Shown here: positions 5,546 to 26,759 of the stretch, piece after piece
How positions within the stretch are numbered: position 1 is the stretch's first letter
Layout of the letters: the number at the start of each line of letters is the position of its first letter
IMG/VR virus record: IMGVR_UViG_3300036407_000018
Location: 1 to 27,034 of that record
DNA: 27,034 bases
Source: a virus
Strand: one strand, 5' to 3'
Notes under the pieces: generated by a model
The model's input: the letters and a program-made list of their open reading frames with translations, nothing else
The model's database searches: none
Told to the model about the DNA's origin: nothing
Translations under genes and position numbers: made by a program

Positions 5546-6165
5546 GCGGCGAGGAGATGCGGCTGCCGGCGTTGCGCGAAGCTCAGCTGCCAGTGGGCAA
5601 AGGCTGCGTCATAGATGACCAGCGTTGTACAGCGGCCGCGCCATGACTCGCGGGCGCGATCGTGCGCCTCGAGTGCAAGTCGCGCGTCACGGATCGCGCG
5701 CCAATTCGTCGAGCGCAGAGTTTCGCTCCCGAGGTAACGCTCGAGCAGCTCATCGCGGCGCGATCGCCAGGCTGCGAACTGCGGATCGTCTAAGTTGATG
5801 GGAGAAGGACTCGAACCTTCACGAACCGTTTGTGCCGGCTGATCAATTCCGGACGGCTCAGGAGCCACGTGCACGCGACTGCCTGCGTCTGCCAATTCCG
5901 CCACCCCACCTGTTGAAACCTTGCGCTTCGCGGCGCGCGTTTTCTTCGGCGCCGGCTCGATCAAAAACCAATGAACGAATAGCTCGCGGACCCGCGCGAT
6001 CGGTTCCTGCCAGAGTTGCGCAACGACGCCGAGCGATTCGTTAGACTCGACGTAGTCGGCGTACATCGCCTCGACGACTTGCGACGAGAAATCGGCGATC
6101 GCATAACTCGCGTGCGCTTCCTGTAGAAACGCGGCGTGCACGCGGCGGATCTGTTTGCGCGTCAT
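5542..6165 (-). CDS. Hypothetical protein whose ORF contains a tRNA-Leu-like sequence
   Basis: I chose the ATG at 6165 (MTRKQIRRVHAAFLQEAHAS) because it overlaps the stop of the ATPase gene as ATGA. The product has 207 residues. Residues 1-75 form a helical N-terminal part and residues 125-207 a helical C-terminal part rich in Trp and Arg. Residues 86-124 (GGVAELADAG..., ending REGSSPSP) are the recognisable translation of a tRNA-Leu gene read in frame. Either the tRNA-like sequence was inserted and the frame stayed open, giving an odd linker, or two genes flank a tRNA and the continuous ORF is accidental. The downstream half has no good ATG start of its own. Confidence 0.55.
   Translation of the reverse strand: MTRKQIRRVHAAFLQEAHASYAIADFSSQVVEAMYADYVESNESLGVVAQLWQEPIARVRELFVHWFLIEPAPKKTRAAKRKVSTGGVAELADAGSRVHVAPEPSGIDQPAQTVREGSSPSPINLDDPQFAAWRSRRDELLERYLGSETLRSTNWRAIRDARLALEAHDRARESWRGRCTTLVIYDAAFAHWQLSFAQRRQPHLLAA
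5796..5910 (-). tRNA. Atypical tRNA-Leu-like sequence inside an ORF
   Basis: On the minus strand the acceptor 5' strand GGTGGGG (5910-5904) pairs with TCCCATC near the 3' end, all seven positions with two G-U pairs. Next come TG and a class II D-arm, GCGGAATTGGCAGACGC, highly typical of tRNA-Leu. The T-arm is perfect: GAAGG, loop TTCGAGT, CCTTC. A short ACG-GTT-CGT arm before it could be the variable arm. The span is 115 nt, about 30 longer than a usual tRNA-Leu, and I cannot form a canonical anticodon stem and 7-nt loop by eye. CCA is not encoded. It may be a degenerate or insertion-bearing tRNA, so no anticodon is assigned. Confidence 0.5.
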
Positions 6166-7958
6166 GATTCGAACAGCTCCGGACTGGCTTTGAAAACGCC
6201 GCGGCCGCCGACGACCAGATCGCGCGATTTCAGGCGCGACATGAAGGTCGAGAACGAGCCGCCCTTTGTGGAAACGCCCGCGGCGGCGCCGATCTCCTCT
6301 GCGCTCATCTCGCGCGGATAGGCTTCGTAAAGGACGCGGAAAATATCGGCCGCTTTCGTCGCGCCGAGGTCGCGCATCCAAAAGTCGAACAGCTCGCGGC
6401 CGCTCGGCAAAGGCTCATACGAGCCGAGCGCCTCGAGCCCTGCCGGCGTGATGTGCATGGCCGTCGACGGCGTGCCGTCGATCCAGCCGGCGCCGCGGCC
6501 GCGGGAGATGAACGTCGAGAACGATCCGCCTTTCGTGGAGACGCGAGCTCGCGCGCCGATCTGCCGCGCATTGAGCCCGTTTGGCGATACCTGCGCGAGC
6601 GCGACCATGATGTCGCGCAGCTTGCCGGTAGGTCCGCCTTCGACCGGCGGCGCCGTCACTCGCGGAGCGCGTGGCGTAGAAGCGGGCGGCGCGACAGTGA
6701 ATGGCTCGTTGTGCCGGACCTCCACTTTCACGGGCACATCTGAATCGACGATCTGCTTCATCCGTTGAAGCAGTGCGCTCGCTTTTGTTTTCAGGTCCGC
6801 GAACTCGCGTGATCGTCCTTCGACAATCGTTTCGATCTTCTTCAGCGCGTTATCGACTGCGGCGCCGATCGCCTTCTTTACTTCCTCTGCCGGAACGCTC
6901 GCGTCGAAGTTCCGCGTCGTGATCTCGATGACGAATTTCATGGCTTCCTCCAATGCGCGCTTTGCTTTTGCGACTTCCTCAGCGCGGATGTTTTGCTGCG
7001 GATCGGCTTTCGGGACCGCCTTCTTGGCGAGCTCGCGCTTCAGCTCAGTGACTTGCTTCTGTAGATCGGCGATCGTGACGCGCTCCTGCTCTGCCTCCTG
7101 GGGAAGATCGGCGAGCTTCGCCAGGACCGACTTCACTTTCGATTTTGGCGCCGCAACTGGCGCCGGCGCCGCGCCCGCTTCCGGATGCGTGGTCATGACG
7201 TCGCCGACCTTGAACTTGATCACGTCGCGCGAGATCGCCGGACCGAACCCGTAGAACTCGCCCGGCTCCAGGTTGCGGAGTGAGAGCGTTTCTGCGCGCG
7301 AAGTGAAGCCGAGCTCCTCCGCCGCGCGCTTGCGGTCGAGGTCGATCGTGGCGCCGCCGATCAGTTTATTTTTCGCTTCCGCGGCTGCGTCTTTGTTCAG
7401 CTTCGAGATTCGCTGCGTGGCAAGGATGCCGCAGAAGCCGCGCTTGCGGCCTTTCGACATGAGGCCGATCACGGCATCCGCGACGGCATCGCCTTTCTGT
7501 TGCTTGCCGTGTTCCGGGCAATACTCGTGCGCCTCGTCGACGACAATCAGTGCGCGATGCCAGAGATGCTTCGGCGCGTTGACTAACGAGTTGAGGAAAC
7601 GGCGCACGAACTCGCGGCGATCGCGCGGGTGCAGCTCGTAAAGCGAAATGATCGCCGAGACGCCGAGCTCGAGCAGACGTGTGGCGAGCAGCTCGGCGCT
7701 GCGCAGTTCCGGAACGCAATCGCCATCCTCGTGACGAACGAGGATGTAGTCGCCTTTTTCGCGCAGCGTGTAGAACTCATCCTCCGGATCGATCACGATC
7801 TGCTGCACGTGACCGTGCGTTTGCTCGAGCAGCCGACGGAGCGCCCAGGACTTGCCGCTGCCGCTGCTCGCCTGCAGGAGGAGCCGCGAAACGATCAGCT
7901 TGCGCAGATCGATCGTGACGTCGCGCCCGGTGCTGTGAATGCCGAGCGATATCTTCAT
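6162..7958 (-). CDS. HerA/FtsK-type ATPase with coiled coil and duplicated winged helix
   Basis: The ATG at 7958 overlaps the preceding stop as ATGA, so I prefer it to the ATG at 7964. In the 598-residue product, Walker A is QASSGSGKS (29-37), followed by an IDPEDEF motif near 56-62 and Walker B ALIVVDEAHE (136-145). A sensor-like ILATQR at 178-183 completes a HerA (DUF87-like) hexameric DNA-pumping ATPase core, residues 1-255. Residues 280-405 are charged and helical, probably coiled coil. Residues 440-598 hold two winged-helix-like repeats sharing VSTKGGSFSTF (472-482 and 562-572). HerA ATPases translocate or load DNA. In a Mu-like early operon it could remodel the transpososome or serve replication, which is inference. 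Mu itself has no such protein. Confidence 0.85.
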   Translation of the reverse strand: MKISLGIHSTGRDVTIDLRKLIVSRLLLQASSGSGKSWALRRLLEQTHGHVQQIVIDPEDEFYTLREKGDYILVRHEDGDCVPELRSAELLATRLLELGVSAIISLYELHPRDRREFVRRFLNSLVNAPKHLWHRALIVVDEAHEYCPEHGKQQKGDAVADAVIGLMSKGRKRGFCGILATQRISKLNKDAAAEAKNKLIGGATIDLDRKRAAEELGFTSRAETLSLRNLEPGEFYGFGPAISRDVIKFKVGDVMTTHPEAGAAPAPVAAPKSKVKSVLAKLADLPQEAEQERVTIADLQKQVTELKRELAKKAVPKADPQQNIRAEEVAKAKRALEEAMKFVIEITTRNFDASVPAEEVKKAIGAAVDNALKKIETIVEGRSREFADLKTKASALLQRMKQIVDSDVPVKVEVRHNEPFTVAPPASTPRAPRVTAPPVEGGPTGKLRDIMVALAQVSPNGLNARQIGARARVSTKGGSFSTFISRGRGAGWIDGTPSTAMHITPAGLEALGSYEPLPSGRELFDFWMRDLGATKAADIFRVLYEAYPREMSAEEIGAAAGVSTKGGSFSTFMSRLKSRDLVVGGRGVFKASPELFES

Positions 7959-8152
7959 CGGCATACCCCTTCGTGTAGCGTCACACGAACGACGCGGGAC
8001 GCTTTAAGGTTGCGATCCTTTAGGGCGCCCTCCGCATTACGCCGGTCGGTAAACAGCCAAGGCGTTCCGATCCGTCCTGGATCGTGCATGAAGTACGGGG
8101 CGTGACGCCGCGGGTCGCCGATCCTGATCGCGTAGTATTTCTCGCGTGTCAC
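7955..8152 (-). CDS. Small hypothetical protein (65 aa), GTG start
   Basis: The GTG at 8152 overlaps the preceding TGA as GTGA, and the end overlaps the ATPase start by 4 nt. The open frame extends upstream but only as a shadow of the Cys-rich gene. The product begins with Tyr-rich beta sequence (TREKYYAIRIGDPRRHAPYF) and contains TPWLFTDRRNAEGAL, reminiscent of small phage proteins that process short host-like motifs. No family recognised. Confidence 0.6.
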   Translation of the reverse strand: MTREKYYAIRIGDPRRHAPYFMHDPGRIGTPWLFTDRRNAEGALKDRNLKASRVVRVTLHEGVCR

Positions 8153-11746: not shown

Positions 11747-13939
11747 CTACGTGACGAGGATGTCGCCGCGCTCGATCGCGTCGCGCTCGAGGCGTTGAAT
11801 CCGAGCGAGCTCGGCCTCCTCATCGAAAGGGGTTGCCGCCGCCGCTGGTGATTCATGACCGAAGCCCCGCGCAAGCACTGGCGCGGGCGAAGGCGACGCG
11901 GGACATCCCCGCGAACCACGCCCAGCCGACGACGGCAAATTTTCTGTGCGCGCGCTATTCCCGTAGCCGTCGCGCGCGGTGCTGATTCTTCTGCCGGTGC
12001 GACCTGCGCCGACAATTGCGCGGAACTCGCTGCGCACCGCGGCGTTCGCGTTTTTGCGCCGGACGAACTCGTATTCTTCCGGCCGAAGATTGAGCTGCGG
12101 CGCATCCTCCGCGAGCGGCGCCACGAACATGCCCTCTCCGAATTTCAGCCCTTCGCGATTGCGCGCGCCACGCTCCGCATTGAAGACGTGGCAGCCATCC
12201 TCCGGACGTCCAGGATGGAACGCGATCAGGACCGAGTACCCGTGCTCGAGATAGAGATCGGAGACGCCGTTGACGCGGAAACGGAACGGGAACGGATAAT
12301 GGTCGATCGACTTCTCGATCGCACCGCCGCGGACCGTGGCAGAGTCTTTAATCGGCAGGAACCGCCAGAGCTCGTCGACCGGGCATTCGCGTTTTGTGGC
12401 GCCGGCAAACAAGTCGTTAGGCACGACCGGCTGCTTGCCGAAAGCGCGCCGGACTTTCGGTCGCGCATTGAACCGCTGCATCGCCGCCTGGATGCCATCG
12501 GCGGCCGCGGCGATATCCCAGAAGTGCATTGCGGCGCGCGCCCGTTTCTCGACGCTCGCCTTCGCATCGGTCGCATCGCGCAGCAGCCGCGTGGCGTGTT
12601 CGAACTCGCCGCGGCGCCGGCCGATGCAAGCACCGTCGCGTTCCGGATGGTGGTCCATCAACGACTGCAGGAGATCGAAGCTCGATTCGATCGTGCCTTT
12701 CGCGCCCGAGGTGAAGACGTGCTGGACGCGAAAGAGTGCGTCGAGCCCGCCCCAGCGTTTCTTCTCATCCCAATCCGGCGGGCGGATCTGCGGCTTTAGC
12801 CTGATGCCGTCGATGACCTGGTTCTCCCAGGCGCCGCGCTCAAACCGCCAGATCTGCGGCAGCCCATGCGCCAGGACGATGTCGCGCAGATGGTCCGCGA
12901 TATCTTCCAGCCGGTAGGCGTCGCGATCGCGACCGATCGGCGAGACGCCCAGGAAGGCGTTCGAATAGACGTCGACGGTCGCGAGGTTTTGCCGCCCCAC
13001 ATCGAGATTGCCCGTCTGCGGATCCACGTAGCGATGCGGCTTGTTCGACGACATGTCGTCGCTCTCGCGCAGCGTGTTCGGGCCCATCGGGATCTCGACG
13101 CCGTTCTCCGGATCAAGCAGCCACATGCCGCGGCGCTCGATGATCTCGAACTGGCGCGCGTGCTTCTTGCCGCGGAACGCGGCGCGCATTTCATCACTCA
13201 CGTAGCCGGCGCGTTGGAGCGACATCGGCCAGCTCGGCAGCCGGCGCTCGCGGGCCGCGCGTTCCAGTTCCGCCACGATCAGCTCGCGGGTCTCCGGCCG
13301 GCACTCCGGTTCGCTGATAAAATCTTCGATCGCCAGTGGCAGCGAATCCTTGCGCAGCCGGCAATGGCGGAGCGCGTTCTGTTCGTCCTCATCGAGCTCG
13401 AACTTCGCTTTCGCGCCGCACTTCGCGGCCTGCTGTGGAATCAATCCATCGCGCCCTTTCTCCTCGTACGCACGGCGCCACCGCGAAAGCACCGCGGCCG
13501 ATTCGCCGAGAATCTTCGCCGCATGATTTTGTGAGAGTGGATTAACCTCGCGGTTAATCAGCGTCAGTAACTGCAGCACGATTCCCTCGCGCCGGTTCCG
13601 CTCCGTCGCCTGAAACTCGGAGAGTGGAGATTGCCTCTCACGACGGTCGCCACGGCCCACAACGGCGGAATCCGGAACATCGTCGTGTTGCTTCGCGGCC
13701 TTTACGCGAGGCGCTCCCTGCTGCGCGATCTTTTCGAACGCGCGCATGAGCTTGAGAAATTCCTCTTCCGCCAGCTCCTCGATTTTCTTCACCCGGCCGA
13801 GCACACGCGTTGTGATGGCGAATCGATTTGCACCGGGCTGCGCTTCCTCGGCTGCCTTCCATAAGCGCCAGTAGATCGCGTTGCGCTGCGCAGCCGACAT
13901 CGGCTCCGGCGCGGGCGTATCGAGGACGAACTCTTTCAT
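11747..13939 (-). CDS. MuA-type DDE transposase
   Basis: The 730-residue protein starts at the ATG at 13939, overlapping the preceding stop by 4 nt; MuA has 663. It catalyses strand cleavage and transfer during replicative transposition. Residues 115-180 (SQNHAAKILGESAAVLSRWR) are a helix-turn-helix of the end-binding type. The core is at about 285-460. My reading of the acids is D294 (in ESDDMSSNK), E367 (in RFERGAWENQ) and E418 (in KGTIESSFD). The spacings of 73 and 51 residues compare with 67 and 56 in MuA, but the middle acid appears to be Glu rather than Asp. A beta-barrel region follows near 500-600, and the last 100 residues are Pro- and Ala-rich with a charged helix at the end, the place of the MuB-interacting domain. 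Identity is firm; the Glu needs an alignment. Confidence 0.92.
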   Translation of the reverse strand: MKEFVLDTPAPEPMSAAQRNAIYWRLWKAAEEAQPGANRFAITTRVLGRVKKIEELAEEEFLKLMRAFEKIAQQGAPRVKAAKQHDDVPDSAVVGRGDRRERQSPLSEFQATERNRREGIVLQLLTLINREVNPLSQNHAAKILGESAAVLSRWRRAYEEKGRDGLIPQQAAKCGAKAKFELDEDEQNALRHCRLRKDSLPLAIEDFISEPECRPETRELIVAELERAARERRLPSWPMSLQRAGYVSDEMRAAFRGKKHARQFEIIERRGMWLLDPENGVEIPMGPNTLRESDDMSSNKPHRYVDPQTGNLDVGRQNLATVDVYSNAFLGVSPIGRDRDAYRLEDIADHLRDIVLAHGLPQIWRFERGAWENQVIDGIRLKPQIRPPDWDEKKRWGGLDALFRVQHVFTSGAKGTIESSFDLLQSLMDHHPERDGACIGRRRGEFEHATRLLRDATDAKASVEKRARAAMHFWDIAAAADGIQAAMQRFNARPKVRRAFGKQPVVPNDLFAGATKRECPVDELWRFLPIKDSATVRGGAIEKSIDHYPFPFRFRVNGVSDLYLEHGYSVLIAFHPGRPEDGCHVFNAERGARNREGLKFGEGMFVAPLAEDAPQLNLRPEEYEFVRRKNANAAVRSEFRAIVGAGRTGRRISTARDGYGNSARTENLPSSAGRGSRGCPASPSPAPVLARGFGHESPAAAATPFDEEAELARIQRLERDAIERGDILVT

Positions 13940-18785: not shown

Positions 18786-19274
18786 ATGAAAGCATTCTGC
18801 GTTCTTTTGCTTGTTGTCGCTGCGCTTGGCGAAGCGCGGGCGCAGTCGCTCATACATGGAAAGGATCCGGCCGGAAGCGCGGCGTCTTCGAATCCAGTCG
18901 TCATCGGTGGCGTCGGCTCGACGGGGCAGGCCGTGAAGCTAAAGCTGAACGATGACGGCACTTTGGAAATTGGCGGCATCAGCCTGGGCGACGTCACTGT
19001 TAGCCAGGCCGGCGCGGCGAACGCGGCGGGCAGCCAGGTTGCTGCCTCGACCACAGCCGGGACGCTGGTCGTCGCGCGGGCGACGCGTCGCACCTGCCTC
19101 GTCCGAAACCTGGACGCGGCGATCACGGTGTATATCGGGCCGGCGGGAGTAAGTGTGAACAATGGTATGCCGATCCGACCCGGTGAATCGGTCGTGGTCT
19201 CCGCGGTGACGCTTTGGCAGGTCATTGCCGCTTCGGGGGCGCCCATAGTGGCAACGCTCGATGAGTATGATTAA
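18786..19274 (+). CDS. Exported hypothetical protein preceding the tail-spike-like gene
   Basis: The frame could start at a GTG at 18783, but the ATG at 18786 is preferred. Residues 1-20 (MKAFCVLLLVVAALGEARAQ) are a signal peptide. The 162-residue product is beta-rich, with ISLGDVTVSQAGAANAAGSQ and a late part (NLDAAITVYIGPAGVSVNNG, IRPGESVVVSAVTLW) that resembles small phage head or fibre-associated proteins. It overlaps the next gene by 14 nt. Function unknown. Confidence 0.66.
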   Translation: MKAFCVLLLVVAALGEARAQSLIHGKDPAGSAASSNPVVIGGVGSTGQAVKLKLNDDGTLEIGGISLGDVTVSQAGAANAAGSQVAASTTAGTLVVARATRRTCLVRNLDAAITVYIGPAGVSVNNGMPIRPGESVVVSAVTLWQVIAASGAPIVATLDEYD

Positions 19275-20628
19275 ACATCTTCTCTCCCTTCCAGGCCTTG
19301 TGGCACTGATCTGCGCGCCGGCGTTCGCGGTGAGTCCAATCATGGGCGGCGGTGGTGGTGGCGGCGCTGTCGATTCGGTAAACGGGCAAACGGGCACCGT
19401 TGTGCTCCCGCTTTCGTCAACGCTTTACCCGGAATCGTTCGGCGCAGTCGGTGACGGCACCACGGATGACACGGCTGCGATTCAGGCTGCGATCAATGCA
19501 GCGCAGAGCAGCGGGAAGGCGCTGGAGTTCGCGGCTAAGACCTACAAAACGACGGCCACGCTCAATATCACCTCCGCTTTCATCTTCCGCGGGCAGGGCA
19601 TGGCTACGATCATTCAAAGCACCTTCGCCACCGGCGACGTGATCCACGTCGAGCCGACCGCGCCACCGTCTTCGACCGGGCTGACCGACATCGGCGGGGT
19701 GCGGAACATGGTCTTCAGAGATTTCAAAATGGCGTCAACCGTGACTCGCACCAGTGGCTACGCGATCGGGACGCTCTACACGACGAATATGCTGCTGCAG
19801 AACATCGAGATCGGCGACTTCGATCTTGATCCCACGCACACGCTCCCGTTCTTCGGCGGGGTGTCGCTTTTAGTGCAGGGCGCGTTTCACATGAATCAGT
19901 GTCGTATCTACTCGCGCGCGACCGGCGTCGCGATCTCCGGGAGTAACACTTACAATTTCTTTCGGTTCGATGGGATCATCGATGGTCAATCAAAGATCTG
20001 GAGTAACTCCGCGTCGACAACGTCAGTCGGGGTCCTGATCGGCGGATCAACCGGCGGCGTGGTGGTCGCCGACTCGGACATCTGCGAGTGGGGGGAAGGT
20101 ATCCGCGTTGACACTTCTCTGAGCGGCGAGACGAACCGCGAGTTCTTCATGAACGGCGCATTCCTTGACAACAATGTGGTGAATGGGCTGGTCGTTACTG
20201 CGGACAGCCTCACGCTGCTCGAGTGCAATGACATGTGGGCGGCGGGTAACGGCAGAACGAACAATGCCGGCACCGGCGTGTCTCTGGCTGGCCCCACACG
20301 CGCCACGATCAGTGGCGGACGCATCTATGCTAACGAGACTTATGGCTTAACGGTTGACTCCGGTGTGCAGCTCCTGATGACGGGCGTCAACCTGTACGGC
20401 CACGGCTCCTACGGGATCTACCTTCTCTCCGGGAGCGTCGCGACCCTCGCCGGGAACGACCTCACCGGGAACACCGGCGCGTGCGTGCACATGGCCTCGG
20501 GCGTGCTCGCGGTGACGCTGAGCGGAAACAATCTGCAGACCGGAAACCCGATTGTCACCGGCGATATCCCAACCTACTTCAAAGCGTCGGGCAATCTCGG
20601 CTACGCCGACGCGGACGTTCACCCGTGA
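19261..20628 (+). CDS. Pectate-lyase-fold (right-handed beta-helix) tail-spike-like protein
   Basis: The ATG at 19261 overlaps the preceding stop by 14 nt; an ATG at 19267 is the alternative. The 455-residue product has a signal peptide (MSMIKHLLSLPGLVALICAP, cleavage near AFA) and a Gly run at 29-35. Then come VNGQTGTVVLP and YPESFGAVGDGTTDDTAAIQ (56-75), the hallmark entry to a pectate-lyase-like beta-helix. The remaining coils show repeated G/N turns. Phage proteins of this fold are tail spikes that bind or cleave surface polysaccharide. A Sec signal is unusual for a tail protein, which assembles in the cytoplasm. Enzyme activity is not shown by any motif I can see. Confidence 0.8.
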   Translation: MSMIKHLLSLPGLVALICAPAFAVSPIMGGGGGGGAVDSVNGQTGTVVLPLSSTLYPESFGAVGDGTTDDTAAIQAAINAAQSSGKALEFAAKTYKTTATLNITSAFIFRGQGMATIIQSTFATGDVIHVEPTAPPSSTGLTDIGGVRNMVFRDFKMASTVTRTSGYAIGTLYTTNMLLQNIEIGDFDLDPTHTLPFFGGVSLLVQGAFHMNQCRIYSRATGVAISGSNTYNFFRFDGIIDGQSKIWSNSASTTSVGVLIGGSTGGVVVADSDICEWGEGIRVDTSLSGETNREFFMNGAFLDNNVVNGLVVTADSLTLLECNDMWAAGNGRTNNAGTGVSLAGPTRATISGGRIYANETYGLTVDSGVQLLMTGVNLYGHGSYGIYLLSGSVATLAGNDLTGNTGACVHMASGVLAVTLSGNNLQTGNPIVTGDIPTYFKASGNLGYADADVHP

Positions 20629-20640
20629 GCCCTCCCATTC

Positions 20641-21309
20641 GTGAGTGAAAGCGCCCGTAAGGGCAAGATCGCGAGCCTGCCGGCGCAGATCCGCGAGGAG
20701 GTAAATCAGCGGCTGTATAACGGCGAGCAGGCGCCGCAGATCCTGCCGTGGCTCAACGCGCATCCGGACGTCCTCCGCGTCCTTGATGAACGCTGGGGTG
20801 AGCAACCGGTCTCGCCGCAAAATTTGAGCGAATGGCGCAACGGCGGTTACAGGGACTGGCTGAAGCGCAACGACCGCGTTCATGCGCTGCGCACGCTGAG
20901 CGATTACTCGCTGAAGCTGGCGCAGGCTGCCGGTGGATCCATCAGCGAAGGCGCGGCCGCGATCGCGGGTGGGCGTATCCTCGAATTGCTCGAGCGCTCC
21001 GCTGAATCGCTGGATGATGAAAGTGATGTCAGCGACGCGCGGATTGATCCGGACGAATTAGTGAAGTCGCTGGTCGCGCTGCGACGCACCGAGATCATGC
21101 AGAAGAAGGTCGATCAAAACACGATCGTGCTTGGCCAGCGAGATCGTCAGCTCGCACTCGAGGAGCAGCGGTTTCAATACCGCACGGTCGAGAAGTTCTT
21201 CGATTTCTACGAGGACCAGCGCGCGAAAGAGATCCTGGAAAGCGACGCGCCGCGTCCCGTGCAGATGGATCAAATGGTGCAGCTGATGTTCGGAGCGAAG
21301 CCTGGCTAA
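20641..21309 (+). CDS. Mu gp27-like small terminase (DUF3486)
   Basis: The GTG at 20641 begins SESARKGKIASLPAQIREEV. The next part, NQRLYNGEQAPQILPWLNAH, is the typical start of DUF3486 proteins, followed by a helix-turn-helix (PVSPQNLSEWRNGGYRDWLK). The C-terminal half is a long coiled coil. The product has 222 residues, a normal size for the family. Its place directly before the large terminase genes fits the small subunit, which recognises phage DNA and stimulates the large subunit. In Mu the initial cleavage is near the phage left end. Confidence 0.83.
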   Translation: MSESARKGKIASLPAQIREEVNQRLYNGEQAPQILPWLNAHPDVLRVLDERWGEQPVSPQNLSEWRNGGYRDWLKRNDRVHALRTLSDYSLKLAQAAGGSISEGAAAIAGGRILELLERSAESLDDESDVSDARIDPDELVKSLVALRRTEIMQKKVDQNTIVLGQRDRQLALEEQRFQYRTVEKFFDFYEDQRAKEILESDAPRPVQMDQMVQLMFGAKPG

Positions 21310-21423: not shown

Positions 21424-22452
21424 ATGGCTCAATCTAAGACTTCCAAAAAGATCGTCACGCGACCGCGCGTGGCCGGTAAGTCAACGGCGTCTGCGCGTGT
21501 TGTCGCGCCCAGTGGCGAGCTCGGGCCCGTCGAGCCGCTGGTGCAACTCCGGCCGTATGCGGTCGAGCCGTTCTGGAATGATGATCTGCGCACCGCCTGG
21601 TGGGTTTGGGCGCGCCAGAAGGGCAAATCGTTTCACGCGGCCGCGAAAGCGTTGCGCCGGATGATGATGATCCGCGGACTACTTAGCGTGTTTGTCTCCG
21701 CGTCGATCCGATTAGGCCAGGAGTTCATTCGGAAGGAGGCGCAAATCTGGCTCGATGTGATGGGAAAATATCGACGCCGGCTCGCTGAGGGCGGCGCATT
21801 GAAGCTCGCGACGAGTGCCGACAATGAAGCCGGCGAGCTCCTCGATATCGACGCGATCGCGGATCTGTTCGAACACCAAAAGCTCGAAACGAAAATCTGG
21901 CACGACCGCACGACCTACAGCCGATCGATCGTCGTCGCGCCGAATCCTGACACCGCGGTCGGCTGGACCGGCGACATTTTCTTCGACGAGTTCGGGCGCA
22001 TGCCGGACTTCAAAGACGTACTCGAGGCGTGTTTGCCGTTCATGACGAGCAATCCGCAATTTCGAATGCTCGGCACGTCGACGCCGCCGCCCGACGATAA
22101 GCACTACAGCTATGAGCTGACCGTTCCCCAGGAAGAAAACTTCCCGGTGAATCCGAAGGGCAATTGGTATCGCAGCCAGGCCGGATTCATGGTGCATCGC
22201 GTCGACGCGTGGGACGCTGAAGCGGCCGGGATTCAGATGTACGACGACACGACCGGCGAGCCGGTGACGCCGAGCGAGCATCGCGCGCGGGCCTTCGATA
22301 AGACCGCGTGGGACCGCAACCACGGCCTGCGCTTCATCCGCGGCGGTTCCGCCGCGATCGCGCTGCACGTTTTACACGTCGCGATGACGCGCGGCGCGAC
22401 GGAAGGCATTGCGAGCGACATCACGGAACAAATCACGTTGGAGGCTGCATGA
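21424..22452 (+). CDS. Large terminase, ATPase half (Mu gp28-like N-terminal part)
   Basis: I give the ATG at 21424; a GTG at 21403 in the same frame is possible, and neither has a clear ribosome binding site. In the 342-residue product, Walker A is ARQKGKS at 63-69, Walker B IFFDEFGRM at 185-193 and the motif III coupling element LGTSTPPP at 216-223, all in the usual order for a terminase motor. The ORF ends at the ATPase C-terminal region and the nuclease is in a separate gene 292 nt downstream. The 3' end overlaps the next ORF by 4 nt. The gap of about 114 nt from the small terminase gene holds nothing I can recognise. Confidence 0.85.
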   Translation: MAQSKTSKKIVTRPRVAGKSTASARVVAPSGELGPVEPLVQLRPYAVEPFWNDDLRTAWWVWARQKGKSFHAAAKALRRMMMIRGLLSVFVSASIRLGQEFIRKEAQIWLDVMGKYRRRLAEGGALKLATSADNEAGELLDIDAIADLFEHQKLETKIWHDRTTYSRSIVVAPNPDTAVGWTGDIFFDEFGRMPDFKDVLEACLPFMTSNPQFRMLGTSTPPPDDKHYSYELTVPQEENFPVNPKGNWYRSQAGFMVHRVDAWDAEAAGIQMYDDTTGEPVTPSEHRARAFDKTAWDRNHGLRFIRGGSAAIALHVLHVAMTRGATEGIASDITEQITLEAA

Positions 22453-22745
22453 AGACCGACAAGCGCATCTCAGCCGAGCTCGCGGAAATCCGGCAGAAAC
22501 TCGATTCAATCGAGGAACACCTGGTGTGGCTGATCAAGCCAGACCAGCGCTTCGCAGTCGGTCGCCGTGTTGAGTTTAGTCGCCGCGCACGCAAACGCGG
22601 CTTCCCACTAAGGAAGCGGGCGACTCGCGGCATCGTCAAAGCGATCGATGGCTTCAGCGTCGTCGTTCTCCTCGACGGCTACAGAAAGCCGTCGAGCTAC
22701 CATCATGCGTTCTTCAATCCGGTTTCCGGACCGAAACTTTTCTGA
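22449..22745 (+). CDS. Small protein with SH3/KOW-like barrel between the terminase halves
   Basis: The ATG at 22449 overlaps the ATPase gene as ATGA, and the end overlaps the nuclease start by 1 nt. The 98-residue product has an N-terminal coiled-coil helix (ISAELAEIRQKLDSIEEHLV). A beta-rich basic part then reads FAVGRRVEFSRRARKRGFPL and RGIVKAIDGFSVVVLLDGYR, an SH3/KOW-like small barrel. It could bind nucleic acid or bridge the two terminase polypeptides. No named family recognised, but its coupling to both halves implies a packaging role. Confidence 0.65.
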   Translation: MKTDKRISAELAEIRQKLDSIEEHLVWLIKPDQRFAVGRRVEFSRRARKRGFPLRKRATRGIVKAIDGFSVVVLLDGYRKPSSYHHAFFNPVSGPKLF

Positions 22746-23464
22746 TGAGCAAGATCCGCGCGCTCACTCCCGCTGAGGCCTGGCCTGACGAGTGGAAATA
22801 CCTGCTCGGCGACGGACCGATAGCGGTCGGCGTCGATCCTGCGACGACGACAAAGAAGCTGAGCAATCCGACATCCATCGCGGTGACACAACGCGTGGGA
22901 CTCGATTACTTCGTTCGCGCGGTCATCCGTTTCAAAACTTCCGATCCGGCGGTGACGCGCGCATTCATCGATCGCGCGATCGATCTTCCAGGTGGCAAGC
23001 GTGTCCGGCGCGTCGTGATCGCGGCCACTTCTGAGCGGTTCTTCGCGACGGATGAGCGTAGCCGGCTCGCGGGCCGCGTGCCTGTCGAGCTCGTGATCGA
23101 AAGCGAGAAGGTCGGCTACATGGGCGAGGAGATGACGTACAAGCTCTACCTCGGAAATCTGCTCGTTAACACGCTGAACGATAATCTGCTCTCGCTGCCG
23201 AATGCTGTTTGGTTGCGCAACGATCTCCGGCAGCCGGAAGGCGCGACGTTCCAAGCGGACCCGGACGAAAATGGCAACCATGCGGACGCTTTTGTGGCCA
23301 TCGCCTGCAGCCTGCATGGATTGATCAGCGCGGGCGGACCAGTGATGGCCGCGGCAGTGCCTTTAAGCACGATTGGAGCGCCGCCACATCTGCGCCCGGG
23401 TCTCAAGAACCCGCTCGCACACCTGTTCCCGAAAAAGTATGCAGTTACTCACCGAGTCCGCTAA
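22745..23464 (+). CDS. Large terminase, nuclease half (RNase H-like)
   Basis: The ATG at 22745 overlaps the preceding TGA by 1 nt. The 239-residue product begins with a short helical lead and then IAVGVDPATTTKK, where D31 is the first catalytic Asp of the RNase H fold. Near the end, ENGNHADAFVAIACS (D181) is the usual last acid motif of terminase nucleases. The second acid (normally in a strand near 95-105, here VIAATSERFFATDE) is not obvious. This is the cutting domain normally fused to the ATPase. The 3' end overlaps the portal start by 26 nt. A split terminase is unusual but the order of genes leaves little doubt. Confidence 0.82.
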   Translation: MSKIRALTPAEAWPDEWKYLLGDGPIAVGVDPATTTKKLSNPTSIAVTQRVGLDYFVRAVIRFKTSDPAVTRAFIDRAIDLPGGKRVRRVVIAATSERFFATDERSRLAGRVPVELVIESEKVGYMGEEMTYKLYLGNLLVNTLNDNLLSLPNAVWLRNDLRQPEGATFQADPDENGNHADAFVAIACSLHGLISAGGPVMAAAVPLSTIGAPPHLRPGLKNPLAHLFPKKYAVTHRVR

Positions 23465-25019
23465 GCAACGCATCGCGAATTTTATCGTCACGCGCATCCC
23501 GATGTTGCGTCGAACGGTTTTCAAGCCGCTCCTGGCCGATCAATCGATCGCCACGGCAAACATCGACGCTGCCACAATCCATGCGATCCTGGATGGAACT
23601 GACACCGGTCAAACGAATGAGTACTTCGCGCTCTGCGATCTCATGCTCCTTTCGGATTCTCACATGCAAGGTGAGATCGCGAAGCGAAAGCTGGCACTGC
23701 TCGGCGATCAGCTGACGATCGCGCCGGCGAAAAAGAAAGACGCCGTCGACACTCGCGCAGCCGACCTTTGCCGCGAACAGGTCGACGGATTGCCGTCGTT
23801 CCTGGAATCGTGCGCGGCACTTCTCGACGGCTCGCTTTGGCCGCTCGCGATCGCTGAGAAGATTTTTCGCCCGGCGACGCGCAATCGGAAGCTGAGTTAT
23901 GAGATCGACAATCTTATCCGCGTGCCGCCGCGGCTGTTCGATTTCTCAACCGGCTTCCTGCGCATCTGGGACACGGATCGCACAACCGGCAATGTGCTCA
24001 GCACGACAAGCGAGCCCGATCCGATGCGCTATGTGATCCACCGTGGGCATCTCCTGAGCACGCCGGACTATCGCGGCGGCCCGATGCGCTCGCTCGTTTT
24101 CTGGTGGTCCTTCAGCGCGTTCGGCCGCGATTGGTGGGCGCGGTTCATGGATCGCTACGGCGCGCCGTTCATGGTCGGCAAGTACGACCAGGCCGATGAT
24201 GAGTCGCGGATTATTCTCGAAAACGCGTTCAGCCTCGCGAGCAAGATCAGCGGGCTTGTGATCTCACGCCAGACGGAGGTCGAGATCCACGAGGCGCAGT
24301 CAAAAAGCGGCGGAGAGGGATACGATTTGTTCCTGAAAACGAGCAACCGTGAAAAATCGAAGCTGATCGTCGGACAAACGACCAGCTCGGACGCTGAAAC
24401 GGGGGGGCTGAGCGGCAGTGGCGTTTCGAAGGTGCAGCAAAACGTCCGTAGCGATATCCGGCAATGGGACGGAGTCTCGCTCGGGAATACTCTCAAGCAT
24501 CAGCTGTTCGTTCCGTTCCTGCGGTTCAATGGCATCCCGGGCGATATCAAGATCAGCTGGGGCGGCGACGAAGCGGAAAGCATCGAGCAGGTTTCCTCCG
24601 CCGTCGCGAGCCTGAGTGGCGCCGGCCTCGAGGTGACCGATGACGGACTTGAGGCGCTGAGCGGTTTGATTGGGTTGCCATTGCAGCGCAAGAAAATCGA
24701 GGAGCCGCCGCCTGGTGCGCCGCCGACACGCGGCAAGGTGCTTCCCTTGTCTGTCGACTTGCCAGATCGCTATCGACTCGCGGAGACGGCGAACATTGTG
24801 ATCGCTCGCGAGGGCGCCGCGGATCTCGCGCGAGCCTTCAGCGGAGCGTTCGCGCCGATCGCGCGATTCGTCGCCGACAGTTCAGGACCTGACGATTTGA
24901 TCGCGAAGATCACCGCGCACTATTCCGGACCAAGTTGGCCGCCAGAGCGCGTGGCACCGTTGATTTTAGAAGCTTTGGCAGCAATGGCGGCGAACGGCGC
25001 CGCTCGTAATGCAGCCTAA
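23439..25019 (+). CDS. Mu gp29-like portal protein (DUF935)
   Basis: I chose the ATG at 23439 (MQLLTESAKQRIANFIVTRI); the open frame upstream only shadows the nuclease gene. The product has 526 residues, close to Mu gp29 (about 512). Family marks include DGTDTGQTNEYFALCDLMLL with SHMQGEIAKRKLALLG, the stretch IHRGHLLSTPDYRGGPMRSL, and FMDRYGAPFMVGKYD. The portal forms the ring through which DNA is packed and connects head and tail. The next gene in Mu is the MuF-type head protein; here a methyltransferase follows and MuF is at the far left of the window. The stop is in the same frame as the methyltransferase. Confidence 0.9.
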   Translation: MQLLTESAKQRIANFIVTRIPMLRRTVFKPLLADQSIATANIDAATIHAILDGTDTGQTNEYFALCDLMLLSDSHMQGEIAKRKLALLGDQLTIAPAKKKDAVDTRAADLCREQVDGLPSFLESCAALLDGSLWPLAIAEKIFRPATRNRKLSYEIDNLIRVPPRLFDFSTGFLRIWDTDRTTGNVLSTTSEPDPMRYVIHRGHLLSTPDYRGGPMRSLVFWWSFSAFGRDWWARFMDRYGAPFMVGKYDQADDESRIILENAFSLASKISGLVISRQTEVEIHEAQSKSGGEGYDLFLKTSNREKSKLIVGQTTSSDAETGGLSGSGVSKVQQNVRSDIRQWDGVSLGNTLKHQLFVPFLRFNGIPGDIKISWGGDEAESIEQVSSAVASLSGAGLEVTDDGLEALSGLIGLPLQRKKIEEPPPGAPPTRGKVLPLSVDLPDRYRLAETANIVIAREGAADLARAFSGAFAPIARFVADSSGPDDLIAKITAHYSGPSWPPERVAPLILEALAAMAANGAARNAA

Positions 25020-25047: not shown

Positions 25048-25057
25048 TTGAGTTGAG
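25048..25057 (+). repeat. Tandem TTGAG duplication at the methyltransferase start
   Basis: TTGAGTTGAG follows the ATG at 25045. Two copies put the ATG out of frame with the methyltransferase; one copy would give ATG TTG AGA GTT in frame. This is either a recent 5-bp slippage or duplication event, or a switch. Two copies alone are weak slippage substrate. Confidence 0.7.
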
Positions 25058-25826
25058 AGTTAAACCAGTGCTGCGGTGGCCCGGTGGCAAAAGCCGGCAC
25101 CTGAAATACATCCTTCCGCTCATTCCGCCGCATCACTGTTATTGCGAGCCCTTCGCAGGCGGCCTCGCCGTCTTTCTCGCGAAGGAGCGATCGCGAATGG
25201 AAGTGATCAACGATCAAAACGGAATCCTGGTCGCGCTCTATCGAAACGCGAAGTTCCACGTCGAAGAGCTGATCGCCGAAATTCAGTGGATTTTGAATGC
25301 GCGGCGCGAGATGGAAGATTATCGCACCGAGCAGGGACTGACTGAGATTCAGCGCGTAGCGCGGTGGCTGGTCCGTAACCGGCTTTCTTACGGCGGGCTC
25401 GGCCGGCACTTCGGAATGGAGGGCGCGAGATCCTCGCGCGAAGCGACGCTGCGCAATCTCGCCGAACTCAATGCGCGGCTCGATCGAACGGTCATTGAGC
25501 AGATGCCTTACGAGAAGTGCATCGCGCACTATGACAAGCCCAACACATTCTTCTTCCTCGATCCTCCATACCTGAACGCCGATCCGGGCGTTTACGACGG
25601 CTGGACGGAAGATCAGATGCGGAGCTTCGCGGCGGTGATTCGATCGATTAAGGGCGAATGGGTTGTCACGGTCGACGACAGCCCCGCGACCCGTAAAATC
25701 TTCGCTGAGCATCGGCTCCGCGCGATCAAGTTCGACAACAAGCTGGCGACGATGCGTAACGGCAAGACGGCGATGCGGGAATTGATTATCACTCCGGCAG
25801 GATCGCGGAGACGCCGCGCTTCTTGA
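25053..25826 (+). CDS. dam: Dam-type DNA adenine methyltransferase (D12 class), irregular start
   Basis: Residues 8-15 (RWPGGKSR) and CEPFAGG (31-37) form the SAM-binding motifs, and DPPY at 170-173 is the catalytic motif. The 257-residue length fits Dam, which methylates adenine in GATC; the target here is not proven. The frame has no ATG: it opens at a TTG at 25053, while a good ribosome binding site (AGGAGA, 25031-25036) suits the ATG at 25045, which is out of frame and stops after three codons. TTGAG is duplicated in tandem at 25048-25057; with one copy the ATG would be in frame. In phage the enzyme may protect DNA or alter gene expression. Confidence 0.85.
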   Translation: MRVKPVLRWPGGKSRHLKYILPLIPPHHCYCEPFAGGLAVFLAKERSRMEVINDQNGILVALYRNAKFHVEELIAEIQWILNARREMEDYRTEQGLTEIQRVARWLVRNRLSYGGLGRHFGMEGARSSREATLRNLAELNARLDRTVIEQMPYEKCIAHYDKPNTFFFLDPPYLNADPGVYDGWTEDQMRSFAAVIRSIKGEWVVTVDDSPATRKIFAEHRLRAIKFDNKLATMRNGKTAMRELIITPAGSRRRRAS

Positions 25827-26016: not shown

Positions 26017-26216
26017 TTAAAAGCTCCTGGAACGCCGCACCATGACCCATTTCAGTCATTCCCTCCAGCGCCGACTGTCGCGGCTGATCGCACTAAGTCG
26101 CACCATCGCGCGCCATTTCATTCATCCCGACTGCACTCCGTGTCTGCCGTCGGGAGCGTATCCTGCGTGGGATGCGCAGAGGGCTCGCGGCAGCTGATCT
26201 TGTGTCTCGTTAGGCC
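25827..26216. other. Junction region without a complete gene
   Basis: This stretch holds the truncated leftward frame up to 26016, then about 115 nt with no clear feature, then the right half of an attC-like site (26131-26215). A 51-codon plus-strand frame at 26042-26197 (MTHFSHSLQRRLSRL) ends inside the attC-like part; it might be a small cassette gene but has no supporting evidence. No clean transposon end or direct repeat is seen by eye. Confidence 0.4.
26131..26215 (+). repeat. Partial attC-like integron recombination site (3' half)
   Basis: The region ends in GTTAGGC (26209-26215), the GTTRRRY core where cassettes join. It shares long stretches with the site at 26631-26759, including GTGTCTGCCGTCGG, GAGGGCTCGCGGCAGCTGAT and TCTCGTTAG, over about 85 nt. 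The matching 5' half with GCCTAAC is not seen upstream, so the site appears cut by the element or by a deletion. Confidence 0.65.
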
Positions 26217-26636: not shown

Positions 26637-26759
26637 CAAGGCGATGCAGCTGACCGCGAGCAAGTCCGTCGTTTACGCTTGGAGTGTCTGCCGTCGGAGG
26701 TCTATGCTGCGTCGCGTGCACAGAGGGCTCGCGGCAGCTGATCTTGCGTCTCGTTAGAT
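26631..26759 (+). repeat. attC-like integron recombination site (complete)
   Basis: The site starts with GCCTAAC (26631-26637) and ends with GTTAGAT (26753-26759), complementary core boxes 129 nt apart. Inside, GCAGCTGACCGCGAGC (26645-26660) near the start and GCTCGCGGCAGCTGATC (26727-26743) near the end form an imperfect inverted repeat, as required for the folded single-strand attC. The centre is not palindromic. Length and place between two ORFs on the same strand fit an attC. No integrase gene is in the window. Confidence 0.8.

Follow-up and report, generated by a model that had tools for sequence, protein, structure and literature searches.

We report that the large terminase of a phage, which we take to be a Mu-like transposable one, has probably been divided by a single old fission in its linker, that the resulting junction has become a slot for cargo genes, and that the 98-aa gene now lying in it is most likely a passenger. 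Sequence comparison indicates that the split is a real, old and clade-wide fission in Mu-like phages, mainly those of Verrucomicrobiota. The viral contig analysed, IMGVR_UViG_3300036407_000018, has 27,034 bases and is hereafter called the window. It encodes a MuA-like transposase at 11747-13939 (PHROG 310 transposase, E 1.2e-9) and an AAA ATPase detected with Pfam, and its packaging genes follow the Mu-like order of small terminase, large terminase and Mu-type portal:

20641-21309, plus strand: probable small terminase subunit (PHROG 426 terminase small subunit, weak support, E 9e-4)
21424-22452, plus strand: large terminase ATPase half, 341 aa from the ATG (PHROG 2 terminase large subunit, E 2.5e-10; Walker A, DE and TPPP motifs)
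21610-21630, plus strand: Walker A-type motif ARQKGKS (RxxGKS invariant in nine split relatives)
21976-21990, plus strand: Walker B motif IFFDE (DE invariant in 30 relatives)
22075-22092, plus strand: motif III (coupling motif) TSTPPP (TPPP invariant in nine split relatives)
22449-22452, plus strand: ATGA overlap of the ATPase stop and the middle-gene start, with GGAGG just 5' (read from the sequence)
22449-22745, plus strand: middle gene, 98 aa, probable passenger (64% identical relative at L107:4977-5288, away from the terminase; model pLDDT 48)
22743-22747, plus strand: TGATG overlap of the middle-gene stop and the nuclease start (read from the sequence)
22745-23464, plus strand: large terminase RNase H-type nuclease half, 239 aa (model with pLDDT 86.6 matches PDB terminase nucleases; D31, E97 and D181 invariant in 83 sequences)
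23442-25019, plus strand: Mu-type portal protein (PF06074 Portal_Mu, E 3.6e-59)

The portal ORF opens at 23373, with 23442 as its likely start. A relative of the small terminase was found by tblastn in all 30 split loci.

The original prediction placed Walker A, Walker B and motif III in one ORF and the RNase H-type acids in another, and both placements hold. All three motifs of a packaging ATPase lie in the first ORF, which starts at ATG 21424 (or alternatively at GTG 21403) and stops at 22450-22452. In alignments the Walker A-type RQxGKS, the DE and the TPPP are invariant across nine split relatives, and the Walker B DE across 30 relatives including three fused ones. The score against PF03237 Terminase_6N was 20.6 bits, slightly below the cut-off of 22, and tblastn against 50,697 phage records returned a single weak match.

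The nuclease half was recognized mainly by its fold and its alignment. It gave no significant Pfam or PHROG match, its profile retrieved nothing in a PDB sequence search, and neither tblastn against the 50,697 phage records nor a close-relative scan with the window nuclease alone found anything, so that an alignment was required to reach its relatives; 10 of 63 nuclease homologues match Terminase_6C. The AlphaFold model had 18 PDB matches with E ≤0.001, all of them terminase nucleases (best E 2.3e-5), and the top chains were those of HCMV, HSV, Sf6 and D6E. Given modest TM-scores (about 0.35 to 0.49), this resemblance of a predicted model is a fold match and no close relation. The acids D31, E97 and D181 are invariant in all 83 split and fused sequences. 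D93 is kept in 76 of the 83 and replaced by A or L in the other seven, the window included, which has A93 and V184. All seven also lack K187; six of them (the window, L002, L003, L009, L100 and L105) have lost D93, D184 and K187 together, whereas in L039 only D93 and K187 are missing. This joint loss suggests that the three residues form a linked group within the active site. Since the losses occur in split and fused members alike, they were not caused by the fission. As the predicted nuclease of the window lacks the D93 and D184 of most of its relatives, it may or may not cut DNA.

Relatives were collected by scanning viral and bacterial contigs together with 388 genomes from a single phylum, centred on that of Haloferula luteola (Verrucomicrobiota). 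These scans yielded 34 split and 49 fused sequences, all distinct. In the window and the 33 other split sequences the two domains lie in two ORFs instead of on one chain, a recurrence far above chance. The split sequences come mostly from phages and prophages of Verrucomicrobiota; where a record names the host, it belongs to Verrucomicrobiota or, in one case, to Kiritimatiellota. Isolate genomes with the split include those of Haloferula luteola and Geminisphaera colitermitum, and strain TAV2 of the latter carries three split copies and one fused copy. A tblastn search of the 50,697 phage records with a fused relative (L101) found nothing. Compared with L002, dN/dS was 0.086 and 0.094 for the two halves, with dS above 1 and near saturation; by this measure, both halves are under strong purifying selection.

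In a joint tree, the 34 split sequences and one fused sequence (L022) form a single clade with support of 100/99, and the other fused relatives lie outside. The fission point lies within the linker, and in fused relatives the reading frame continues across this position. An alternative history, in which the halves were brought together from different phages or the gene was split several times, draws on the separate ATPase and nuclease trees, which disagree in places (for example on L018 and L022). Yet the joint tree requires just two changes of state, against a mean of 26.5 when the labels are shuffled, and all split sequences have one common boundary and similar ATPase tails. We therefore regard both alternatives as unlikely and favor one fission. 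The finding of 49 fused homologues might have marked the split as an isolated mutation; their pattern is instead that of one old fission.

The fused terminase of L022 (L022:4968-6626) sits inside the split clade, in a group of 24 sequences (99/99). A tree that keeps all split sequences as one clade with L022 outside was not rejected (AU p 0.19, and 0.15 in a smaller set). The linker of L022 retains a stretch, DVTDKF, that is similar to the [IV]T[ED] tail found on the split ATPases; the other fused proteins do not show it. Because of this resemblance a re-fusion is favored, and L022 is likely a re-fused terminase, which would provide a split form and a fused form for comparison.

We next consider the junction. 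Genes of at least 45 codons between the halves were counted in 30 split loci: 15 loci have none, and the remaining 15 have one or two. The cargo includes a C5-cytosine methyltransferase (PF00145) in L008, an MT-A70 methyltransferase (PF05063) in L035, and two ORFs each in L020, L038 and L039; the remaining filled slots include small orphans. The slot genes of the window's two closest relatives encode 107 aa (L002) and 62 aa (L003) and are unrelated to the 98-aa protein, and the only slot genes that resemble each other, as judged by eye, are those of L011 and L018. One cargo protein of L020 (231 aa, L020:6199-6894) looks glycosyltransferase-like by eye, with no Pfam or PHROG match.

The original prediction proposed that the middle protein may bridge motor and nuclease. 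A role as a bridge or regulator joining the two would fit a gene that lies exactly between the halves and overlaps both, and the relative in L107 implies that the protein is conserved. That relative, the sole clear one, adjoins early-type genes in a phage contig of 67 kb, and no terminase match lies within 5 kb of it; a good homologue away from any terminase argues against a bridging role. Moreover, the slot is empty in half of the split loci and holds mostly unrelated genes in the others, and L002 and L003 lack the middle protein. We thus consider a bridge very unlikely. The phage database held no convincing relative of the middle protein, the 388 genomes of the phylum gave at most a weak broken match, and the hit to PHROG 3728 was weak (E 0.05). 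The original prediction also described the protein as SH3/KOW-like; its predicted model had low confidence (pLDDT 48) and Pfam gave no match, and neither lent this small beta-barrel label any confirmation. The GC content of the gene is slightly lower (0.576 vs about 0.61), a difference too small to use. On this sequence evidence, the 98-aa gene is most likely passenger cargo, which would have no needed role in packaging. Separately, 46 bases at 1229-1274 of the window are 85% identical to L107:3889-3934 and may be an interspersed repeat.

The predicted overlaps, ATGA and TGATG, were both confirmed in the window, at 22449-22452 and 22743-22747. In most of the 30 split loci the first gene 3' of the ATPase, be it cargo or nuclease, starts inside the ATPase stop, and cargo genes often overlap the nuclease start too. 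Because stop/start overlaps occur at both cargo ends, cargo appears to occupy the slot in the form of entire cassettes, in most cases with both overlaps preserved, and accessory genes would thus find a tolerated insertion point at the junction. A Shine-Dalgarno (SD)-like sequence is present at the ATPase end of 22 of the 30 loci, compared with 15.7 expected from amino acids and codon usage; the p value of about 0.001 for this excess assumes independent loci, which the split loci are not. At the nuclease start of the window there is no clear SD, so the nuclease may be translated by re-initiation at the TGATG. Overlapping stop and start codons would couple translation and supply similar amounts of ATPase and nuclease. 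The two proteins would then meet at the portal, joined non-covalently, and jointly do the work of a one-chain terminase, in which DNA is pumped and then cut.

One chain might still be restored by RNA splicing, an intein or programmed frameshifting, and there are precedents: the terL gene of Jug phages is split by group I introns (PMC12363816), and the TerL of cyanophage Mic1 contains inteins (PMC7156551). The window resembles the former in having a coding region in pieces with other genes between them, and the latter in that additional sequence interrupts the region coding for TerL. However, intron-split terL is restored by splicing and the Mic1 inteins are spliced out of one protein, whereas here the halves are separate genes, each with its own overlapping start and stop. 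An Rfam search for introns in the window and nine relatives had no match, and thus no group I intron was detected between the coding parts. Furthermore, the halves abut without an insert in half of the loci, and where cargo intervenes a single frameshift could not join them. Restoration of one chain is therefore highly improbable. The metagenomic origin of the contig and a frameshift within the nuclease gene of L044 might suggest faulty sequencing or assembly, or a frameshift that arose recently in a single phage. Either is next to impossible, because 34 distinct sequences including two isolates share the split, both halves are under selection and a whole gene lies between them. The original prediction of a stable arrangement and no single frameshift is borne out, since the split runs through the whole clade and purifying selection acts on both genes.

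Separate terminase genes are known from Arthrobacter cluster AY phages, in which the two domains are encoded in "two separate and consecutive genes" (PMC11920828); BillyTP (PP978841) is annotated with separate ATPase and nuclease genes. As in the window, the small terminase lies before the two genes and the portal after them. The cluster AY halves, however, are consecutive and overlapping with no gene between, whereas the window has one. The terminase family also differs: the BillyTP nuclease matches PF20441, and cluster AY phages are not Mu-like. Our ATPase and nuclease profiles had no significant match among the BillyTP proteins, so a shared terminase lineage was not detected and the fission in the Mu-like lineage appears independent of that in cluster AY. 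The 49 fused relatives, the large terminases of Mu-like phages, belong to the same ATPase and nuclease families by profile and differ in being one chain instead of two; relatives of the Mu-type portal lie 3' of the fused terminase in 30 of 43 tested. We found no description of a split terminase in Mu-like phages in a literature search that was thin on subscription journals. Separate ATPase and nuclease genes were thus already known from cluster AY, and what appears new is the occurrence of the split in Mu-like phages, together with a slot for cargo.

To what extent DNA pumping requires the nuclease domain on the same chain is a central question in the study of packaging motors. We tentatively raise the possibility, which we hold to be somewhat less than even, that these phages have a natural two-chain packaging motor with the nuclease as a separate, exchangeable subunit. 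If so, pumping would proceed without a nuclease fixed to each ATPase, phages could swap halves with one another, and accessory genes would have a permanent point of entry at the junction; some of these genes, the methyltransferases, may protect phage DNA. A long-standing two-chain lineage would be a natural test system, as each half can be made, mixed or omitted. The junction would also illustrate how a fission point inside an operon turns into an entry site for passenger genes.

Several other features of the window were observed. A gene for a 455-aa beta-helix protein with a signal-peptide-like start lies just 5' of the packaging genes (19261-20628, PF13229), and one for a D12-class adenine methyltransferase lies directly 3' of the portal (25053-25826, PF02086, E 3.1e-24). 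Close to the contig end there is a 74-base direct repeat (26140-26213 and 26684-26757, 86% identical), and a 62-base direct repeat (6234-6295 and 6501-6562, 79% identical) is located in the area of a 600-codon minus-strand ORF at 6162-7964.
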